Of a stretch of 64,000 bases of DNA, positions 53,828 to 64,000 are shown piece by piece (position 1 is the stretch's first letter; each line of letters begins with the position of its first letter). The position numbers were made by a program, and so were the translations under genes. Under the pieces are notes generated by a model that was not told where the DNA came from, ran no database searches, and was given only the letters and a program-made list of their open reading frames with translations. Location: NCBI GenBank assembly GCA_946480695.1, contig CAMLKG010000010.1, positions 62,001 to 126,000 of the forward strand, written 5' to 3'. Source of the stretch: an uncultured Cellvibrio sp. (GTDB taxonomy: Bacteria; Pseudomonadota; Gammaproteobacteria; Pseudomonadales; Cellvibrionaceae).

Positions 53828-55795
53828 TCATTTACATAGGCCGCTACTCGAATATTTACGTTCTCGATACAAGTATGATGGCAATTGAACCTGAGCCAAG
53901 GTCTTTTTCCTTTCTGCATCCGATGCGCTCCCAGTCACCGTTAACTCTTTTTTATACTCATCGTAATGTGCAATAAAAGCTGTTTCATTGGGCTTAAGAA
54001 TGGTCAGTTTGTCTAGCTCCATCAACGCGAAATAATCCTCGAATTGAAGAACGGCGCGTCCTGGGCTTGTTGGGTCACTGGCAAAATCGCGCCCGACCAT
54101 CGGATGGCAAGCAGAAACGCCCATGAGTGACAGCAGAGTCGGAGCCAAATCTATTTGGCTGCTCAACGTAGTTACTTTCGTTGGCCGAATATCAGCACCA
54201 AGGATCAGCCCCGGAATCTGGAATTTTTCTACCGGAATAAGGTTGTTTCCATATACACGATTATCATGATCCGCCACCACAAGAAATACAGTATCCTGCC
54301 AGTAGGCGCTTTGTTTGGCCTGTTCAAAGAATTTACCCATCGCCCAATCAGCATATTTAACCGCATTGTTGACTGTGTTTTTAGGCTGTTCGAACAACTC
54401 AATTCGATTATCTGGAAACTCAAATGGCTCATGATTGCTGGAGGTAAAAATTAAACTGAAAAAGGGCTTTCCGGTTTTATGAAGTACATCAAGCTCATGT
54501 TGTGCAGTATTAAAAAGATCTTCATCGCTGGCACCCCAGCTTCCAACAAAAGCTGGATTGCGAATTTTTTTTATATCGACGATTTCTTTGAAACAATTGC
54601 CGGTAAAAAAGCCACGCATATTGTCAAAGTGTGCTTCTCCGCCATAGATAAATTGCGTTTGGTATCCTGTTTTTTTCAATACAGAAGCTAATGTTGAAAA
54701 GTTATTTTGGCTTTTCGAAAGTTTTACCACGCTTTGTGCCGGTGTTGGCAAATATCCAGCAATAACAGCTTCGATACCGCGCACAGAACGGGTACCCGTT
54801 GCATATAAATGTTCAAACCACATGCCCTCTCCTGCAAGCTTTTCCAGCTCCGGTGTGACGGCTACACCGCCAAGGGATTTAACAAATGTAGCTCCCATAC
54901 TTTCCTGTAAAATAATAACCAGATTCAATGGTCTTTTGCGTTTTATCGCTGCTTCTTGCCAATGAAGTGTTGGATACTCCGGATTTTCAAACGTATATTT
55001 TTTTAACCAGGGCCAATCAAGGCTATATTGAAGCATCTCATTGGTTGGCAATTTCCCATATATTTCACTGGAGTGGGCTTCATGTTTCATGTTGTAGAGC
55101 GCGTACAATACTGAATAACCGGAATTAATGACCAATGAGTTCACCATTGAATCGCCGGTAATTGCAAACAATGCGGGATTAGCTGGCCGATGATTAACGG
55201 TGGAGCGTATTCCCATAAACACCGCAATAAGAACCAGGGGCCACACCAGAAAATTTTTTAGCGGCGACCATACCGTTAACGAAGCTGTTGGCAAGCGCAA
55301 GAAACAATGAAGCCCATAGCCCAACAGCCCCGTTGACAATAAACCACCAACAAATGGCAGCCGAAATCCATGCCATAAAGTTGAGAGAATTTCTTGCGGA
55401 TATTTTAAATATTCAATGAAGAGTCGATTGGGCCGGGTATCAAATTGCATCAGGAATGCCGGTGTCGCCAATTCCATAAATAAGATACCAATCAGTCCGA
55501 TAAGACACCACACATAAGTGCCTTTAAACCAGATCGCAGCCCAACGTTTCCATGCAAATAAGGGCACACATAAAACAGGTATTAAAAACCATAAGCATAT
55601 CAGAATGAGATCCGCTCTCACTCCCTGTAAAAAAATGCTTGCCAGATCGCCAGTGGCGTCTACCCGCTCATAATTCCACACCACAAGTGCTATACGACTA
55701 AGACTTAGCGCCATCAATGATAGAGCCGCCATACGCACCAGATAAACGTATGGCCCAAAAACACTTGGGAGTGAGGACTTGACAATAGAAGCCAT
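53828..55795 (-). CDS. LTA synthase/MdoB-like membrane sulfatase-family transferase
   Basis: A 655-residue inner-membrane protein of the alkaline phosphatase superfamily (LtaS, MdoB/OpgB branch). Five transmembrane segments lie in the first 200 residues, then a periplasmic sulfatase-like domain begins at about 290 (LNLVIILQESMGATF). The nucleophile is the threonine in LYATGTRSVRGIEAV; other metal-site elements are FTSSNHEPFEF, VVADHDNRVYG and QIDLAPTLLSLMG. Family members transfer phosphoglycerol or similar groups to glycans or lipids; the acceptor here is unknown. It is divergent from the two-component system, with a CTTAAG-N5-CTTAAG box 50 bp upstream. Confidence 0.87.
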   Translation of the reverse strand: MASIVKSSLPSVFGPYVYLVRMAALSLMALSLSRIALVVWNYERVDATGDLASIFLQGVRADLILICLWFLIPVLCVPLFAWKRWAAIWFKGTYVWCLIGLIGILFMELATPAFLMQFDTRPNRLFIEYLKYPQEILSTLWHGFRLPFVGGLLSTGLLGYGLHCFLRLPTASLTVWSPLKNFLVWPLVLIAVFMGIRSTVNHRPANPALFAITGDSMVNSLVINSGYSVLYALYNMKHEAHSSEIYGKLPTNEMLQYSLDWPWLKKYTFENPEYPTLHWQEAAIKRKRPLNLVIILQESMGATFVKSLGGVAVTPELEKLAGEGMWFEHLYATGTRSVRGIEAVIAGYLPTPAQSVVKLSKSQNNFSTLASVLKKTGYQTQFIYGGEAHFDNMRGFFTGNCFKEIVDIKKIRNPAFVGSWGASDEDLFNTAQHELDVLHKTGKPFFSLIFTSSNHEPFEFPDNRIELFEQPKNTVNNAVKYADWAMGKFFEQAKQSAYWQDTVFLVVADHDNRVYGNNLIPVEKFQIPGLILGADIRPTKVTTLSSQIDLAPTLLSLMGVSACHPMVGRDFASDPTSPGRAVLQFEDYFALMELDKLTILKPNETAFIAHYDEYKKELTVTGSASDAERKKTLAQVQLPSYLYRERKYSSSGLCK

Positions 55796-55844
55796 TAGTT
55801 CAGTTAACCCTGATTAAAAAATCGGGGCATCCTAACAACTGAAA

Positions 55845-55861
55845 CTTAAGTAAATCTTAAG
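55845..55861. promoter_or_regulatory. BqsR/PmrA-type box 1
   Basis: Perfect CTTAAG-TAAAT-CTTAAG, i.e. TTAAG-N6-TTAAG. This is the consensus reported for the Fe(II)-responsive BqsR (CarR) regulator and also fits the PmrA-type half-site spacing. It lies 50 bp upstream of the LtaS-like gene. Confidence 0.75.
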
Positions 55862-55909
55862 AGACCAATAGGCGGTAATATTTCTGATTATTGCCTCTGA
55901 AAACAACAT

Positions 55910-55926
55910 CTTAAGCACGTCTTAAG
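55910..55926. promoter_or_regulatory. BqsR/PmrA-type box 2
   Basis: Perfect CTTAAG-CACGT-CTTAAG, 65 bp from box 1 and about 237 bp before the response-regulator start. Each half-site is itself a palindrome, so the site has no fixed direction and may serve either flanking gene. Confidence 0.75.
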
Positions 55927-56162
55927 CTTGTCGTTTTATTCTGGTCCGGCCGGATTGCCCCTTTATTTCACTGAAGAATAGGGTCAAGTAATTAAAATCG
56001 AGAGAACAGAGTCTTAAAACGATTGGGCTATAATCCCAAATAAACAGATACCGGTTATTCGGGTCGCGTTTATCCTCGAAAATTACCAACGCTTTATACT
56101 TCACATAACCCCAACTCACAGAATGGAGTCTGTGAAGGGATGACACCAAAAGAGGGATTGGA

Positions 56163-56822
56163 ATGCACATATTGCTAGCTGAAGATGATAGCCTGCTTGC
56201 CGACGGAATTATCACCGCGCTTAAACGTTCATGCTTTGCCGTTACCTGGATAAATAATGGTAAGACGGCCAGCGCTTATCTTGCTGCAGAATCTCCGGAT
56301 ATCCTCTTATTGGATTTAGGCTTGCCCGATATGGATGGCATGGAATTACTGCAACTGGTACGTCAAAAAAAATTTAAAACACAAGTATTAATTCTCACTG
56401 CTCGCGATAGCACAACCGAAAAAGTTGCGGGACTGGATGCGGGTGCCGATGACTACCTAACAAAGCCATTTGAGGTGGATGAGTTACTTGCAAGGCTACG
56501 CGTACTGGAACGACGCCTTGGCAATGTGCCCACAGCACTGATGAAAGTAGGCTCCGTAACATTGGATACCACTCATCACCTCGTGCTGTTATATGATAAA
56601 CCGATAAATTTATCGCGTCGCGAATACATGCTGTTAAAAGCATTAATAGAGCACGTTGGAATTATTCAGACCAAAGAAACGCTGGAAGGAAAACTTTATA
56701 GCTGGGGCGACGAGGTCGCCAGCAACGCCATTGAAGTTCACATACACAATTTGCGTAAAAAATTACCAGCTAATTTTATTCGTACTGTTCGCGGTATTGG
56801 TTATATGGTTCCCCGTCAATGA
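56163..56822 (+). CDS. OmpR-family response regulator (QseB/PmrA/BqsR-like)
   Basis: A 219-residue transcription factor. The receiver domain has LLAEDDSLLADGI, the phospho-acceptor in LLLDLGLPDMDGMEL (Asp about 51), and the Lys in YLTKPFEVDELLARL. A winged-helix domain (about 125-217) contains LSRREYMLLKALIEH and HIHNLRKKL...RTVRGIGYMV. It overlaps the sensor kinase gene by 4 bp. The two CTTAAG-N5-CTTAAG sites upstream are the expected type of target for this subfamily. Confidence 0.93.
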   Translation: MHILLAEDDSLLADGIITALKRSCFAVTWINNGKTASAYLAAESPDILLLDLGLPDMDGMELLQLVRQKKFKTQVLILTARDSTTEKVAGLDAGADDYLTKPFEVDELLARLRVLERRLGNVPTALMKVGSVTLDTTHHLVLLYDKPINLSRREYMLLKALIEHVGIIQTKETLEGKLYSWGDEVASNAIEVHIHNLRKKLPANFIRTVRGIGYMVPRQ

Positions 56823-58207
56823 AATCTATTCGCATATTTTTAGTGGTGCTGTTGATAGCAATGGTAACGCTCGCCAATTTTGCTGCTGCTGTACGTGGCT
56901 ATCTTGGGAGCATGAATGAAGCCGAGAGTCTATTTAATAAACGACTATTGCAACAAATGGATTTACTCGATTACCTACTTCCTGCACATTACCAGGAATA
57001 TTTGCAACGCCCTGCTCCGGAAATATTTCCTGCACTGCAAAAAAACGATCAATCAGGTTCATCACCACAAATAGCCGAATTGCAATTTCAATGGGTCAGC
57101 AGCGACGGAAAATTACTAGCTCGATCAGCAGCCATGCCCGATGAAATAATCACAGATCTGAAAATAGGATATCAGTTTGCCAATTTCAATCATTATCGCT
57201 GGCATGTACTGGTGGCTACAGCGGCCAATAATTCGGGTTGGTATTTATTGGCAGAGCGCGATGATCAACGCTATCGACTCGCCGAATCCATGATATTGCA
57301 AGCAGTATCACCAATGATCATCGCGATTCCACTTATTGGCTTTGTTATTTGGTGGATACTAGGCATTGGCTTGAAACCGATAACGACACTTGCAAAAGAA
57401 TTTCACGCACGGGAAGCAACTGACTTACGCCCCATTGAACAACAGGATATGCCTAATGAATTAATCCAATTAGCGCAATCCGCAAATGAATTACTACGTA
57501 GGCTGGAATCCTCGTTTATACGCGAGCAACGTTTTACGGCAGACGCAGCTCATGAACTACGAACACCTATTGCCGTGCTAAATATTCACTGTGAAAATCT
57601 TTTGCATGACATCAACCCTGCCCCGGAGTCCGCACATAAATTGCAGCAAGGAATTAAACGTATGCGCTATTTAGTGGAACAAATTTTATTACTCAATAAA
57701 ACATCACCAGACCATTTTATGAGTCAATTCATGCCCGTTAATCTCACAATGTTAACCAAAAAAGTTGCTGTTTCAGCTAGCGAAGCTCTGGGCGAGAAAG
57801 GTCTTAATATAGAATTCGAAGGTGATGAATGTTGGATTGATGGAGATTCGGCCGCGCTGGAAACATTAATTAATAATTTACTGGGGAATGCCATTAAATA
57901 TACTCCTCCGAATGGTCAGATTATTTTGCGAACCTGGCTTCGCGGTGATGAAGTGATATTGAAAGTTATGGATAACGGTCCAGGTATTGCGGCAGAACAA
58001 CGTGATCGGGTATTTGATCGTTTCTATCGCCTACACGGTGATCGGCATGATTCAGGAACTCCCGGTTGTGGATTGGGCTTATCTATCGTAAAACAAGTAG
58101 TGGATTTACATCAAGCAAATATTCGCCTCGCAAATTCATCATTTCCATCAGGATTATTGGTAGTAGTCACTTTCACAGCGGGAAGAAAAAGAGAAAATAA
58201 CTTATGA
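56819..58207 (+). CDS. Sensor histidine kinase (QseC/BqsS-like)
   Basis: A 462-residue inner-membrane kinase. TM1 lies at about 7-25, then a periplasmic sensor domain of about 135 residues, TM2 (about 163-184, PMIIAIPLIGFVIWWILGIG) and a HAMP-like linker. The H-box is FTADAAHELRTPIAVL, the N-box NNLLGNAIKYTPPNG, with VMDNGPGIAAEQRDRVFDRF and GLGLSIVKQVV. The periplasmic part has no RExxE motif like that of BqsS, so the signal is unproven. It overlaps both neighbours by 4 bp and is in one operon with a cupredoxin and an iron permease. Confidence 0.92.
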   Translation: MKSIRIFLVVLLIAMVTLANFAAAVRGYLGSMNEAESLFNKRLLQQMDLLDYLLPAHYQEYLQRPAPEIFPALQKNDQSGSSPQIAELQFQWVSSDGKLLARSAAMPDEIITDLKIGYQFANFNHYRWHVLVATAANNSGWYLLAERDDQRYRLAESMILQAVSPMIIAIPLIGFVIWWILGIGLKPITTLAKEFHAREATDLRPIEQQDMPNELIQLAQSANELLRRLESSFIREQRFTADAAHELRTPIAVLNIHCENLLHDINPAPESAHKLQQGIKRMRYLVEQILLLNKTSPDHFMSQFMPVNLTMLTKKVAVSASEALGEKGLNIEFEGDECWIDGDSAALETLINNLLGNAIKYTPPNGQIILRTWLRGDEVILKVMDNGPGIAAEQRDRVFDRFYRLHGDRHDSGTPGCGLGLSIVKQVVDLHQANIRLANSSFPSGLLVVVTFTAGRKRENNL

Positions 58208-58536
58208 AAATCAGAAAGCTATTATTAATATTACTCTGCATATCTCCCACCCTTTGGGCGACGACACCAGAATTTACCATTGAAATTCGCGATCATTTAT
58301 TTTTCCCTTCAACATTAGTCATCCCTGCCAATACCAAGGTTAAATTAATAATTATTAATAAAGATTCAACACCCGAAGAATTTGAAAGTTATGAGCTTAA
58401 CCGCGAAAAAGTCATTATGGGGGGCGTCAAGGCGGTTATTTTTATTGGCCCATTAAAACCGGGAGACTATCCATTCTTTGGTGAATTCAATCCTAAAACT
58501 GCTCAAGGTTTAATTCGCGCAAAACATTCAGGATAA
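58204..58536 (+). CDS. Periplasmic cupredoxin-fold protein of ferrous-iron uptake (FtrB-like)
   Basis: A 110-residue exported protein: signal peptide (about 1-20, ending LWATT) and one cupredoxin domain. IEIRDHLFFPSTLVIPANTK, EEFESYELNREKVIMGG and IGPLKPGDYPFFGEF follow the pattern of FtrB-type proteins, which work with an FTR1 permease. The usual type 1 copper cysteine is replaced (PFFGEF), so it is unlikely to be a blue-copper electron carrier; metal binding through His, Met and acidic residues is possible. Start overlaps the kinase stop by 4 bp and its end is 4 bp from the permease. Confidence 0.82.
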   Translation: MKIRKLLLILLCISPTLWATTPEFTIEIRDHLFFPSTLVIPANTKVKLIIINKDSTPEEFESYELNREKVIMGGVKAVIFIGPLKPGDYPFFGEFNPKTAQGLIRAKHSG

Positions 58537-58540
58537 GGTT

Positions 58541-59380
58541 ATGGTTGATGCAATTTTATTAATATTGCGAGAAGTATTAGAAGCGGCACTCATTATCACT
58601 ATACTATTGGCAATGAGCCGAAAATTATCTATTTTATTTAACTGGATAATACCTGCCTTGGCTCTTGGAGTATTAAGTTCCTGGTTGTTAGCACATTATG
58701 CATACACCATCGCGGATGCATTGGATGGCACCGGGCAAGAATGGATAAATGCATTACTTTATTTATCGGTGATTTTATCGTTTATCTTTATTGGTTTAAT
58801 AATAGTGCCGCTATTATTCCATACTTCTTCGCAAGAGAAATATTTATCGCTCACAGACAACTCAAAGCATTACTATAAAAGATTATTATTGATTTGCGCT
58901 GTCTTTGCTGTTGGTTTATCGCTTGCTCGGGAAGTTTCTGAAATATGGATTTACCTGGGAGGTTTTTTACATCAGAAGGACCTATTGCAATCCGCATTAA
59001 CCGGAGGTGCCATAGGATTGGGCATAGGTATTAGTTTGGGAGTCGTCACTTATTATCTACTAGTGTTTATTTCTGCGCGCATGTTCCTTATTGTTTTGTT
59101 TATTTTTTTGATTTTTCTATGCGGTGGGCTTTCAATGCAAATTGCAAGGCAACTATTGCAAATTGGAATGCTAACCTCTGCCGACCCCTTGTGGGATACC
59201 TCAACCATAGTCAATGAACACTCCTGGCTTGGGGAGCTGCTTTATGCACTCATCGGCTATGATTCCAGCCCAAATGCCATACAAATTATTTTTTATTGTA
59301 TTGCGGTTATACCCTTATTGCTCGCGCTATTATGGGGTTGGTACCGCAGAAATTACTCACTTGCTTCTAAATCTAGATAG
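58541..59380 (+). CDS. FTR1-family iron permease
   Basis: A 279-residue inner-membrane iron transporter with about seven hydrophobic segments. Both REXXE motifs of the FTR1/EfeU family are present: LLREVLEAALII (about 9-20) and SLAREVSEIWIYLGG (about 123-137). With the cupredoxin-like gene it forms a reduced version of the FtrABCD system; no FtrA/P19 or FtrD gene is adjacent. The sequence is followed by about 300 bp without a gene. Confidence 0.9.
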   Translation: MVDAILLILREVLEAALIITILLAMSRKLSILFNWIIPALALGVLSSWLLAHYAYTIADALDGTGQEWINALLYLSVILSFIFIGLIIVPLLFHTSSQEKYLSLTDNSKHYYKRLLLICAVFAVGLSLAREVSEIWIYLGGFLHQKDLLQSALTGGAIGLGIGISLGVVTYYLLVFISARMFLIVLFIFLIFLCGGLSMQIARQLLQIGMLTSADPLWDTSTIVNEHSWLGELLYALIGYDSSPNAIQIIFYCIAVIPLLLALLWGWYRRNYSLASKSR

Positions 59381-59696
59381 ACCAAGAGACGTCTCCCTTC
59401 TCTTAAATTGATTCACCGGGGATGATTCAGGTGATACAAGAGGTTTGTATTGACGGCAGAATGACGAATCCATTCAACCGCTTATAAAAACAAGATCCCA
59501 GACAGTGAACTGACTAGCGGTTTGTGCTCAATCTATTTGTTAGGTATTTATTGTGCATACAAAATATACAGAGAATCCAAAAAAGTTTTAGATGTAGCTT
59601 GTTGTTTTTTTATGGAATAATTTGGGTAGCAAAACCACAAAAAAGCAACTTACAATCTATTGAGCGAACGAAGTGCGCGGTATTGGATCCCCTTTA
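59381..59696. other. Intergenic stretch, no gene seen
   Basis: AT-rich, with many stops in all frames. The only structure I note is the copy of the 52-bp direct repeat at 59604-59655. Confidence 0.5.
59604..59655. repeat. Direct repeat, left copy
   Basis: About 52 bp, closely matching 60545-60596 (roughly 80-85% by eye), centred on GGTAGCAAAACCACAAAAAA versus CGTAGCAAAACCATAAAAAG. The two copies flank the lipoprotein gene. Confidence 0.65.
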
Positions 59697-60493
59697 TTAG
59701 AGGCCTCCACCCTCATCTTCTTTATCTTCCTCTGCTTGTTCATCTTCCTTCGCTTTTACTTTTGCTTTATAAGCTGGATTTGCGAACAATGCGTCTAGCC
59801 CCACAGGAGTGGTTAATTTTGTGACAGCGCCATCAGCTTGCTCCAAACCACTTATGAGGCTACAAGCTCCATGATAAGAAATCGCATCTGCAATTGAAGC
59901 CTCCAAAGTATATTCTTCTATTGGCAACAACTTTGCTTCATTTATTTTCTCTAATATTTCCGATCTTCTTGCATCGATGCCTTTCGTAACTACTTGTGCA
60001 GCCAAGTCTGAAAAATATGACTGATTGTACTCAGCACGAACTCCGGAAGTAAGACCAGACAATGCGGATAAATTTTTGGCTGCCTGCACCCCGCTCGCAA
60101 CTGCCCCGGCAGCCCCAAATGTGGTCGATGCTGTTCCGAACCAGAAGTTGGCATTTGATTGTTTCTTTTTTAATACAACCTTATATTGTTCACAAAGCTG
60201 ATTGGACGCCATCATAATTCGATCTTGTACCCTGTTGCGACTAAGCTTATCTTTCGAAGAATTTTTTTGCAGCACCTGATCAAAAATGTTTGAAAAACTT
60301 AATTTTTTATATTCATAATCTTTCGCGGTTTCTTTGCCTTCTGTAACAATTGAAATTAAATCAATTTCCTCAATAGGCTGTACAATTAGTTTCTCAGCAC
60401 CAAATTTACTTTTTTTTCGCCGTCAAAAAATTCACATCCGGACATATAAAAACCAAACAAAAATATAGAAAACAACGAAAATATAGATCTCAT
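59697..60493 (-). pseudogene. Lipoprotein gene split by a frameshift at an A8 run
   Basis: The 5' part starts at 60493 and encodes MRSIFSLFSIFLFGFYMSGC, a signal peptide with lipobox YMSGC, followed by EFFDGEKK. At the run of eight A (60410-60417 on the plus strand as T) the frame is lost; one extra A would join it to the long downstream frame (KSKFGAEKLIVQPIEE...), which is open to 59697. The body has a helical N-terminal part, a small Ala/Gly-rich segment (GTASTTFGAAGAVASGVQ) and an acidic C-terminal tail (KAKEDEQAEEDKEDEGGGL). No family recognised. It is either a recent pseudogene, a sequencing error, or a gene read by slippage at the A-run. Confidence 0.65.
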
Positions 60494-61030
60494 ACAATTC
60501 CCCAAGGTAAATTACCGCTGCGTTTATTCGCAGTTTTTAAGTTTATTTTTTTGTGGAAAAATTTGCGTAGCAAAACCATAAAAAGGTGACTTACAAACAT
60601 CAAGTTATCGCAACATACGATGTTGAAGCCATTTGTTATGAACAAACATAGTTATCTATCCTTTGCGTTATTAATTTTGATTTTTTATGTGATTGGTTTT
60701 GTAGTGCATGGTATTTGGTAAACGAGAAAACCAAAGCACCGGAATAGCAGATATGTCTGCTACCCAGACATTAAAATAAGTAAAGCATAGCCGCGCGATT
60801 TTGTCATGGAAACTAGCATAACGCGACGATAACCAAGAGAGAAAGATGATTGAATGGAGAGCCGATAGCTCCATATTGGGTATTCATGCGTATACTTATG
60901 CGCCACAAATAGCCGTACTTTTCATTTTGTGGAAACCAAACCTCGATTTGTGGACAAAAGGGACCTCAACGTTATACCTTAAAACAGGGTTATTGTTTTA
61001 GATAAATCAAACGTTTTTGGAGGAAAAAAT
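60494..61030. other. Intergenic stretch, no gene seen
   Basis: No supported coding sequence. It carries the right direct-repeat copy (60545-60596). A weak hairpin CTGCG-N6-CGCAG plus TTTTT lies at 60518-60538. Confidence 0.5.
60545..60596. repeat. Direct repeat, right copy
   Basis: Partner of 59604-59655, same orientation, lying about 50 bp upstream of the lipoprotein start (on the minus strand). Confidence 0.65.
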
Positions 61031-61813
61031 ATGAGCAGTGGTTTAATGAAGATATGCTATCAAGGAGATACAGGGGAGTCAGATTTGCGGACCCTACTCG
61101 TCGATGATGTCCTTCATATTTCATTATGGGACGTACTGGCAACATTAGAACGTGAAAACAAAACGTTAAACGAAAGCAATCCTCAGCAGTCACGCATGAA
61201 TATCATTAATGGAATTATGGAAACAATGGAACCAGAGGAATATATTCATATACCGTCCAGTAATCGTGACCTTCCAGAAGAAGTATTTGTTACGCAACCT
61301 GGCATGTACCGGGTACTCTCTGCTGACAGGAGCAAGGCCGGCAAAAAATTTCAGAAGTGGTTATTCCACGAGGTGGTCCCATCGATAACCCAATACGGAA
61401 CTTACCCTCCTCCACCTAAACCAACAGGTTCTGTGCTAGCTCAAATGGCAGAAATTCTTGCGCAGAATTCCAGAATGTTAGCTGATGCCATCGTTCGACA
61501 AGACAGACTGGAAACCGAAGTCAACAACGTCAAAACAAAACTGGATAATGTAGAAGATCGGATCACGGCCATCGAATCCGACGGCCAGGATTTAAAGCAA
61601 ATAATTACCGTTAAAGATCGATTTGAGCAACGGAACATAGCTGCAAATGCCCAACGCGAACTCGACGTCGTCGCTTGGTGTGAAAATCTTAGTTTAAGTA
61701 AAGGACGACGCAAAATTAGCTGCCCCAGCGGGAGCCGATTAAAAGCAAAATATTTTATCGAAATAATCGACGAAGCAATTGAGTTTGTTTTTGCTTCAAG
61801 CCAAGGAGTTTAA
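61031..61813 (+). CDS. BRO-N domain protein (phage antirepressor type)
   Basis: A 260-residue DNA-binding regulator of prophage type. The BRO-N domain spans about 10-120, with EVFVTQPGMYRVLSADRSKA and GKKFQKWLFHEVVPSITQYG, the best conserved parts of the family. A coiled coil (about 140-200, VNNVKTKLDNVEDRITAIES) and a small basic C-terminal region follow. GGAGG lies 8 bp before the ATG. No other phage gene is adjacent, so it is an orphan in an accessory region, near a dead transposase. Confidence 0.87.
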   Translation: MSSGLMKICYQGDTGESDLRTLLVDDVLHISLWDVLATLERENKTLNESNPQQSRMNIINGIMETMEPEEYIHIPSSNRDLPEEVFVTQPGMYRVLSADRSKAGKKFQKWLFHEVVPSITQYGTYPPPPKPTGSVLAQMAEILAQNSRMLADAIVRQDRLETEVNNVKTKLDNVEDRITAIESDGQDLKQIITVKDRFEQRNIAANAQRELDVVAWCENLSLSKGRRKISCPSGSRLKAKYFIEIIDEAIEFVFASSQGV

Positions 61814-61889
61814 AAAATAGCCATGCATAAGATGTACTAGCTCAGACCTGATCTGACAGTTACCAGTTTTTTTCTAGGTGCCTGTCAGT

Positions 61890-62848
61890 TTAGATTTGAG
61901 TTAAATTCTTTCCTGCCCAAACCTTCTTTCCATCAAGCAATGTTTCCATTGGTGTACAGCCACAGTAAACCTTGTTCTGATGAGTTCGAGTATTGTTATA
62001 GTATTTCATCCATTCGTCCAGATCCTTTTGCAATTCATCCAACGTTACATAAAGGTTTTGCGGAATGTGACCTGATAAAACTCTTGTAATATCGTTTTAT
62101 GGAAGCGCTCGCAGATCCTATTGGTCTGAGGTGATTGCGAGCTTTGGTTTTGGTGTAATCAATATCGTTGAGGGCCAAGTACAATTGATAATCATGTTGA
62201 TCCATCTGGCCACAACATTCAGCACCACGATCAGTAAGGATTCTCAGAATTGGCAGCTGCTGTTGAGTAAAGAATGGCAACACTTTATCGTTGAGTAAAT
62301 CGGCTGACGTGATCAGTGTTTTGCTAGCATAGCTTTGCAAATGCCACTTTACTGTAAGTATCTATAAAGGTTTGCTGGTAAATGCAACCTACGCCTTTGA
62401 GGTTACCCACATAAAATGTATCTTGCGATCCAAGGTAACCAGGATGATGCGTTTCAATTTTCCCCTTTAGCCACTTTTTCTTCCAGTGCCTGCAATCGCT
62501 TTTTAAAGCTTTTCAACACCATGCCTTAACCAAATAAAACGAACACCACTGCCGAAGACAAATACGTCAACTTTACGTAATTCATTGCTGGTGCGATGCT
62601 GGCCGTGAGCAAGCTGCTCAAGGGCATAATCAAGAACCGCTTTTTCAGTTGCAGAATCGATGCGATTTTTAACATTCGGAGTACGTTTGTTCCGATTAAT
62701 CAATACATCAACTCCACCTTCCTGGGTTAGCTCTTGATAACGATAAAATGCGTCGCGGGAAAACCCATTACCTTGCAAGCTTGGATACATTGCCGAGTTC
62801 TTCCGCCAAGTTTAGCAACCGGCTTTGTGTTAATGGGGTTGTTAGTAT
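61890..62848 (-). pseudogene. IS481-family transposase, multiply frameshifted
   Basis: Pieces of one transposase appear in order on the minus strand across several frames. The N-terminus is LLNLAEELGNVSK and VMGF, then RDAFYRYQELTQEGGVDVLI, RNKRTPNVKNRIDSATEKAV, HHPGYLGSQDTFYVGNLKGV, LLNDKVLPFFTQQQLPILRI and LTDRGAECCGQMDQHDYQLY. The C-terminal piece is PMETLLDGKKVWAGKNLTQI, ending at 61890. Frame changes and stops interrupt it, so it is inactive. A TGTACTAGCTCAGACC end at 61833 may be the element's terminus; the other end is not recognisable. Confidence 0.85.
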
Positions 62849-62981
62849 GTAGCATGAGAGTTAGTTAGTATGAAACTCTCTAGCGGCATCGGAACAACGC
62901 TAACGGTGCTCTATGGGCACAACTACTCTTCGGCCAAGAGCGGAAATTTCCTTTACCTAACTACTTGCTCTTTACTGGTAC

Positions 62982-64000
62982 TTACGAGGTTGTTGCTGCT
63001 GTTCTTTCTGCCTGTTGTATTGAAGCTAAGGGCATCATCATGCGTTGACTCTCTCGAAACTGTTCAGCGGGTGCTTCATGAGTCACTTCAACTACTGCAT
63101 CGTAGTTTGCACGAATTATAGACTCTATCTCAGTTATATCTGCACGGAAGAATTCTTTTCGACCGTTTACTTTATTTAGCCGACCAGCTGCGAACCGTTC
63201 GTGCAGTTTCGCTTCTAGTGCTGGCGCATTTTCCGAAAAAATCATTGCGTGAACATCAAACCAAAATGGAACAGAGGCATCTCCAAGTTCGTCTATTCGC
63301 TCCATAGGATCAAGACGGCGCGTCATTCCAATTTTGTACACTCCCTCACCGAAAGCACCAATATTAGAAATGACGTAGACATATCCTGCTTTAGCATTTT
63401 GTTCACGGTAATCGATTACCTTTTCTTCATTATCTAGGTTGACTTTGCTAGCTTCAATTTCAGCAATCTTTGTAAGAAGTGATTTTCGCGTATCATCGTC
63501 TTCGGATTTTTCCAACCGCACATTTAGATCACGAAGCGCAGCCACGAAATGTTTTCGCTCTTTTGCAATTTTGTCACGTGCTGCGCGTATTTCTTGTTCA
63601 AGCCTTTGTTGTTCGCGCAACTCCTCTCGAACTCGCTTCGCATCTTCCTTCTCTTCCTGCTTCTTAATCTGAAATTCGTGAGAAAGGCGAAGCTCGTCCA
63701 ATTTTAAATTGAGATACTTTTCCGAAAGACTCACAGTCATTACACGCCCCAACTTATTGCATGTTTCGAAAGATTTTCGGATACGTTTCTCTCCCAATTC
63801 AATATTGTCAAATTTGACATTATCTACACAGTAGTCGGCCTCGTTATTAAAAGATCTAATAACTAATTTGATCATGTCATTCACCAGCTTACGGCCTTCA
63901 GCTTTACTACCATTTACTTCCCAACCTATATTGCCAGTAGCAGCTTGACCATTCTTAATTAAGGTCTTTTGAGTCTCGCGAACAGAATCAAGTCGAGTTT
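62982..64000 (-). CDS. DUF4041 / T5orf172 (GIY-YIG nuclease-type) protein, 5' end outside the window
   Basis: At least 338 codons; the frame is open to the right edge, so the start is outside the window. The N-terminal part resembles DUF4041: LIKNGQAATGNIGWEVNGSK, then DYCVDNVKFDNIELGEKRIR, SLSEKYLNLKLDELRLSHEF. A long charged coiled coil (KKQEEKEDAKRVREELREQ, continuing) leads to a T5orf172/GIY-YIG domain with KAGYVYVISNIGAFGEGVYK, IGMTRRLDPMERIDELGDAS and KLHERFAAGRLNKVNGRKEF. Proteins of this build occur in phages, mobile elements and defence islands; the function is not established. An internal GTG at 63884 is not the likely start. Confidence 0.87.
   Translation of the reverse strand, partial: TRLDSVRETQKTLIKNGQAATGNIGWEVNGSKAEGRKLVNDMIKLVIRSFNNEADYCVDNVKFDNIELGEKRIRKSFETCNKLGRVMTVSLSEKYLNLKLDELRLSHEFQIKKQEEKEDAKRVREELREQQRLEQEIRAARDKIAKERKHFVAALRDLNVRLEKSEDDDTRKSLLTKIAEIEASKVNLDNEEKVIDYREQNAKAGYVYVISNIGAFGEGVYKIGMTRRLDPMERIDELGDASVPFWFDVHAMIFSENAPALEAKLHERFAAGRLNKVNGRKEFFRADITEIESIIRANYDAVVEVTHEAPAEQFRESQRMMMPLASIQQAERTAATTS

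Follow-up and report, generated by a model that had tools for sequence, protein, structure and literature searches.

A predicted pair of divergent PmrA-type promoters between an LtaS-like envelope enzyme gene and a PmrA/QseB-like two-component operon encoding an FTR1-type permease

Two exact boxes in a divergent intergenic region

The window, i.e. the whole stretch of 64,000 nucleotides (64 kb) from an uncultured Cellvibrio sp. that was analysed here, contains two divergent genes, a sulfatase-fold gene starting at 55795 on the minus strand and a response regulator gene starting at 56163 on the plus strand. The 367-bp gap between them harbours two copies of the palindromic hexamer repeat CTTAAG-N5-CTTAAG, each followed by a hexamer resembling a -10 element. 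The features are as follows.

53828..55795, minus strand: LtaS-like membrane enzyme with a sulfatase fold, 655 aa, belonging to the 3LXQ/VP1736 family and predicted to be a target (PF00884, 162 bits)
55829..55834, minus strand: -10-like hexamer TAGGAT, separated from box 1 by 10 nt and predicted from the sequence to serve the LtaS-like gene
55845..55861, minus strand, reading toward the LtaS-like gene: box 1, CTTAAG-N5-CTTAAG CTTAAGTAAATCTTAAG, exact match
55910..55926, plus strand, reading toward the regulator operon: box 2, CTTAAG-N5-CTTAAG CTTAAGCACGTCTTAAG, exact match
55937..55942, plus strand: -10-like hexamer TATTCT, separated from box 2 by 10 nt and likewise predicted to serve the regulator operon
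56163..56822, plus strand: response regulator of the OmpR family on the PmrA/QseB branch, predicted to bind the boxes (PF00072 and PF00486)
56819..58207, plus strand: sensor histidine kinase (HisKA, HATPase_c)
58204..58536, plus strand: cupredoxin-fold protein (PF13473, 97 bits)
58541..59380, plus strand: FTR1/EfeU-like iron permease (PF03239, 46.3 bits, above the cut-off of 25.3)

A sequence-only reading of this DNA had noticed two sites of identical architecture, 65 bp apart from start to start, in the divergent region, which is confirmed: both are exact, they are the only exact copies within the window, and 100 dinucleotide shuffles of the window gave a mean of 0.00. If up to two mismatches are allowed, the window count of 2 is at chance level (shuffle mean 1.76), hence the claim rests on the exactness and the place of the boxes. 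The composite pattern box-N10-TANNNT is matched exactly at both sites in opposite orientations, with a shuffle mean of 0.01 at up to one mismatch. Since CTTAAG is its own reverse complement, the box alone is directionless and the -10-like hexamer supplies the orientation. Both boxes are kept in three relatives (G030, G002 and G001, the latter with one mismatch in box 1), and in all eight sites, including those of the window, TANNNT begins 10 nt past the box. Moreover, box 1 sits 47-49 bp from the start of the LtaS-like gene in all four linked loci, where box 2 begins 162-276 bp 5' of the response regulator gene. The assumption that the boxes are chance repeats of a palindrome could refer to the window count at two mismatches, but it is contradicted by exactness, conservation and geometry and appears practically negligible.

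In the available part of PMC3973317, the PmrA box consists of CTTAAG-like hexamers that are directly repeated with 5 bp between them. In E. coli K-12, we found CTTAAG-N5-GTTAAT-N10-TAAAAT at arnB and CTTAAG-N5-CTTAAT-N10-GAGCAT at eptA. The PmrA-type promoter layout, i.e. two CTTAAG-like hexamers 5 bp apart and a -10 element ten nt downstream, occurs at both window sites, and this match to the arnB layout points to two divergent promoters of the PmrA type. Binding sites so near to a -10 element can also block the polymerase, and sequence alone does not give the direction of control; the boxes might thus repress, in which case the active system would shut off iron import and the enzyme. However, E. 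coli arnB, which is activated by PmrA, has this very layout, and the -10-like hexamers match TATAAT poorly, as is the case at activator-dependent promoters. Repression is hence regarded as very unlikely.

The regulator and its co-encoded proteins

The best NCBIfam model for the regulator is the PmrA model NF007928 with 227.7 bits, below its cut-off of 330, and the QseB model scored 200.3 bits without reaching its cut-off of 345. Identity to E. coli BasR is the same as to QseB (97/219 each), and whole-protein identity does not separate the regulator from its paralogues either, as 44.3% identity to BasR compares with 41.9-44.1% for eight of them. In a tree built from 92 regulators, a single branch (support 92/71) sets the partner-linked regulators apart, and the tree does not resolve BasR and QseB, which lie outside. 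Orthology to PmrA or to QseB is settled by neither identity nor tree; given the identity tie and the tree placement, the regulator is treated as a member of its own clade on the PmrA/QseB branch.

The recognition helix EVHIHNLR is common to the regulator and E. coli BasR. According to the accessible part of PMC3973317, the DNA-contact residues of PmrA are K153, T187, N188, H193 and H195. At these positions the window regulator has R, S, N, H and H, i.e. three of five are identical, compared to four of five in E. coli QseB, which shares its residues at 187, 188, 193 and 195 with the window regulator. The VHIH motif fits the PmrA as well as the QseB family, as positions 193 and 195 are histidines in E. 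coli QseB too. In all three genomes searched (G001, G002 and G030), it is the regulator that has the highest PmrA-model score (226-229 bits, next 205-208), and among the 28 readable of 30 fetched response regulator loci VHIH was found only in the three copies of the regulator. Each of eight aligned paralogous response regulators departs from BasR at 193 or 195; four further paralogue loci lay outside this reading.

For the kinase, the best NCBIfam models are the heavy-metal kinase TIGR01386 (195.1 bits) and QseC (190.4 bits, cut-off 475), both below cut-off. PmrB carries a periplasmic ExxE iron motif, and the BqsRS/CarRS kinase has RExxE in its sensor region. Neither ExxE nor RExxE occurs in the sensor region of the window kinase (residues 28-165). 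Among 44 kinase rows, ExxE is present in 17, mostly at differing places (ELAE/ELTE near residue 131 in six), and RExxE occurs in the sensor region of none. A search of these kinases for conserved iron motifs found none, and no ExxE position is shared by most of the 44 rows.

The only cysteine of the cupredoxin-fold protein is residue 12 in the signal region, so that the protein has no type-1 copper Cys ligand and a classical blue-copper site is unlikely. The permease is of the FTR1 type, with RExxE motifs at residues 10 (REVLE) and 130 (REVSE); together with its PF03239 score this supports the earlier statement that the co-encoded permease is an iron transporter. The idea of an iron-related system derives from this FTR1 gene and the heavy-metal kinase model.

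The sequence-only reading had gone further and, with reference to the BqsR/CarR box, suggested Fe(II) or cation sensing. In a BqsR/CarR-like case, the system would be an orthologue of BqsRS/CarRS sensing Fe(II) or Ca(II), which is in agreement with the box containing TTAAG-N6-TTAAG, the published BqsR operator (PMC4682146, available part), with the iron permease in the regulator operon and with the top, albeit below cut-off, kinase model. However, the sensor region of the window kinase is without ExxE and RExxE, and eight Pseudomonas response regulators in our tree, which may or may not be BqsR, form a separate clade. Such orthology is therefore unlikely. The best model is PmrA, albeit below cut-off, identity to BasR and to QseB is equal, and the tree places the regulator in a separate clade; together with the above, this leaves the BqsR/Fe(II) label without firm footing.

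The promoter signature ahead of the regulator's run and other genes

For a wider comparison, 80 loci were collected by similarity to the regulator protein. At least one same-strand partner gene (PF12261, AMP ligase, HaemOx2, SDR, TPR, cupredoxin or FTR1) is present in 41 of them, most often cupredoxin (33), followed by the PF12261 gene (28), HaemOx2 (26) and FTR1 (25). L007 was excluded as the head of its run lies at the contig edge, which left 40 testable loci of the regulator clade. A locus was scored as positive if a box of at least 10/12 matches lay near the run's head and TANNNT followed at offset 10. This composite was found at the head of the regulator's gene run in 34/40 loci (35/40 with YANNNT), and any other offset from 0 to 40 yielded at most 4/40. 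Related regulator loci without such partners had it in 6/39 cases (YANNNT: 8/39). Dropping eight loci that overlap the picked pairs described below left the composite in 26/32 run heads. The six run heads without composite are L006, L008, L023, L025, L028 and L064, five of which remain misses under YANNNT; L006 has CA where TA is expected.

The place of the box differs between lineages. Cellvibrio mixtus, L001 and six alteromonad loci have it directly 5' of the regulator, and two Paraglaciecola loci have it 5' of a TPR gene. In other Cellvibrio as well as in Methylophaga, Pseudoalteromonas, Vibrio, Enterovibrio and further lineages, it stands approximately 4.3-4.6 kb upstream, before a PF12261 gene. 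The notion that the regulator is not autoregulated in Cellvibrio loci L003-L005, where no box adjoins it, was discarded: the regulator there belongs to a longer run on the same strand, and the box heads this run some 4.6 kb upstream.

A run comprising PF12261 (named thermostable hemolysin), AMP ligase, HaemOx2, SDR and TPR genes is repeatedly linked to the regulator clade (e.g. L169:1864-6429 and L059:550-4997), with the PF12261-type gene in 28/80 loci. Our search of the open literature found no report on this run and none on a PmrA-cupredoxin-FTR1 operon. In a class-wide sample of 369 genomes, which may overlap the 80-locus set, 34 contained a PF12261-type gene; the composite was upstream of 13/30 fetched genes, compared to at most 1/30 at other offsets from 0 to 30. 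We also observed an EptA-like gene within the regulator run of L007, about 1.6 kb before the response regulator; this record is titled Klebsiella pneumoniae, and its regulator groups with a gammaproteobacterial MAG.

In addition, 34 box-gene pairs were picked by the author from boxes preceding a plausible gene. Of these pairs, 30 have TANNNT at 10 nt toward the target gene, compared to one of 34 toward the opposite side. Many of the pairs are orthologues, hence they are not independent. For one of them (L169:1707), the hexamer had already been seen when the gene was assigned; excluding it gives 29/33. Near-matches inside genes (e.g. L084, L092) were set aside. Genome-wide, the number of boxes with up to one mismatch was below that of a reversed-pattern control in 5/5 Cellvibrio genomes and in 14/15 genomes of a further set, and above it in 3/4 alteromonad genomes scanned; the composite with up to two mismatches exceeded the control in only 2/14 genomes. 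The control was the box with its base order reversed (GAATTC-like), a pattern that may itself be common. The scans give no general enrichment; the box signal is positional, and only placed sites serve as evidence here. In C. mixtus J3-8, there are just two perfect boxes genome-wide, both at the corresponding regulator locus.

These data also bear on the assumption that the main binder is another PmrA/QseB-like regulator of the same cell, with the adjacent one at most sharing the sites. A second response regulator (39-41% identity to the window regulator) has an upstream box, which is perfect in G030 and has one mismatch in G029. Furthermore, G045 possesses an LtaS-like gene with a one-mismatch box, yet no response regulator match at E 1e-38 (150/217 candidates scored). 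On the other hand, all eight aligned paralogues deviate from BasR at a contact histidine as noted above, the paralogue boxes in G030 and G029 are without TANNNT at 10 nt, the composite tracks the run of the window regulator across its clade, and both perfect boxes of C. mixtus J3-8 lie at its locus. We therefore consider a paralogue as main binder quite unlikely. The adjacent regulator, already named as obvious candidate by the sequence-only reading, is favoured by the comparison as the probable binder.

The LtaS-like enzyme belongs to a structurally defined family. A profile of 27 sequences matched 3lxq_A (Vibrio parahaemolyticus VP1736) with 740 bits among PDB entries, compared to 108 for LtaP and 51-75 for LtaS, and the AlphaFold model of the enzyme (mean pLDDT 84.6) matched 3lxq_A with an E value of 1.9e-42. 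Over the aligned part, 3LXQ shares 48% identity with the model, whereas LtaS/LtaP share approximately 18-22%, and the curated LtaS model NF053595 gave 69 bits without reaching its cut-off of 970. The fold is common to VP1736 (PDB 3LXQ), LtaP/LtaS and PbgA/YejM, 3LXQ being the close relative. This structure was deposited as uncharacterized, and the open literature search found no paper on VP1736 or 3LXQ.

Of the 144 genomes in the family of C. mixtus, 23 were found to have the LtaS-like gene, in 26 copies altogether, and a box of 11-12 matches lies upstream of only 9/26 copies. Three of these boxed copies adjoin the regulator, five are unlinked or on other contigs, and one (G029) is divergent from a long regulator-containing run, with two boxes between the LtaS-like gene and this run. 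In G001, G002 and G030, the copy adjoining the regulator is boxed and the second copy is boxless. The boxless copies (L152, L153, L154) thus form natural boxed/boxless paralogue pairs with the linked ones. In the tree, the window copy, the linked copies of G001, G002 and G030 and the copies of G025 and G028 represent a fully supported clade in which all are boxed; L140, a copy with an in-frame stop, was excluded from the alignment, and the label 'box' in this tree also counts L059, whose box heads the run and does not adjoin the gene. The latter is a Vibrio diabolicus locus with a perfect box at the head of its run, in which the kinase gene is followed, on the same strand, by that of a relative of the LtaS-like enzyme (43-45% identity). 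Class-wide, a box of 10-12 matches was found at 3/18 LtaS-like copies, one of which has TANNNT at 10 nt, while the other two have CATAAT or CAGTTT at this place; the class-wide link between box and LtaS-like gene is therefore weak. In Cellvibrio, some copies away from the regulator keep the box, and the comparison supports the earlier proposal that the box probably drives the LtaS-like gene.

Further envelope genes lie behind such boxes in relatives. G001, G002 and G030 have a third box with one mismatch 5' of PAP2-EptA, just after FTR1. Neither a PAP2 nor an EptA gene was found within the 64-kb window; its part from 59380 to 64000 is without PAP2-EptA, and by eye the sequence is unlike that of G030 soon after FTR1. 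Other Cellvibrio have boxes (10-12 matches, TANNNT at 10 nt) ahead of PAP2, EptA-family, Omp85-like, phytase, DUF3465 and second cupredoxin genes, the label Omp85-like resting on one weak POTRA match and on relatives with 49-73% identity. As separate observations, PepSY-type genes have ATTAAG-N5-type boxes with TANNNT at 10 nt in L256 (528-560), L250 and L268, possibly a sister specificity, and the PepSY-type gene of L256 lies upstream of a second response regulator. In addition, L082:1501 is a perfect box 44 bp before a different response regulator gene in the genome of L017 (uncultured Glaciecola).

Proposed control and comparison with known systems

Our preferred reading, to which we assign a probability of roughly 0.8, is an autoregulated PmrA/QseB-type system that would activate a cupredoxin-FTR1 importer and envelope enzymes via two divergent PmrA-type promoters. 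The phosphorylated regulator (56163) would occupy each direct repeat as a dimer covering the -35 region and bring the polymerase to the weak -10 element located 10 nt downstream. Box 1 would then drive the LtaS-like envelope enzyme and box 2 the regulator-kinase-cupredoxin-FTR1 operon, which would represent autoregulation. The sequence-only reading had thus correctly outlined the promoter pair and, in view of the box at the head of most of the regulator's runs, probably also the autoregulation, whereas its Fe(II) sensing is not sustained by a kinase lacking both motifs. The present analysis adds which way each box points, links the boxes to one conserved clade of regulators and widens the predicted regulon to further envelope genes.

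As relatives have the same kind of promoter before PAP2-EptA, the Omp85-like gene and the PF12261-AMP ligase-HaemOx2-SDR-TPR run, a joint response of envelope remodelling and iron import is likely. More tentatively, and as a possibility to which we give somewhat less than even odds, one gammaproteobacterial clade of uncharacterised PmrA/QseB-like two-component systems may employ promoters of the PmrA layout so that FTR1 iron import is coupled both to decoration of the outer envelope by an unstudied headgroup transferase of the VP1736 type and to a PF12261-AMP ligase-HaemOx2-SDR pathway that would make or modify an unknown lipid; iron import and surface charge would then be switched together. 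Through the comparison, two groups of genes come to stand behind a defined control site of the PmrA-like kind: the solved but uncharacterised 3LXQ/VP1736 family and a biosynthetic run that has no name yet. Furthermore, the directional signature box-N10-TANNNT can nominate regulon members in bacteria without genetics, and the arrangement suggests that one regulator orders metal import and envelope modification outside enterics.

Among known systems, the PmrA/BasR regulon of enterics shares the box repeat, the -10 element at 10 nt in arnB, the helix EVHIHNLR and, in relatives of the window locus, EptA and PAP2 genes behind the boxes. Unlike PmrAB, the window operon includes cupredoxin and FTR1 genes, an LtaS-like enzyme is a predicted target, the regulator scores under the PmrA cut-off and the kinase is without ExxE. 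E. coli QseBC is similar in that the regulator is as identical to QseB as to BasR and the kinase matches the QseC model over its length; it differs in that the window proteins stay under the QseB/QseC cut-offs, E. coli QseB falls outside the regulator clade and the neighbouring genes are others. With BqsRS/CarRS of P. aeruginosa the operator is shared, whereas RExxE is missing from the window kinase. Moreover, in the BqsR promoter described in the available part of PMC4682146 the most downstream pentamer overlaps the -35 region, while in the window the upstream half-site would do so. The box motif alone does not separate PmrA, QseB and BqsR. Finally, the FtrABCD and EfeUOB iron uptake systems resemble the window operon in combining a cupredoxin-fold protein, as which FtrB is described in the available part of PMC11966278, with an FTR1-type permease; the window operon differs from them in holding only these two components, together with a two-component system.
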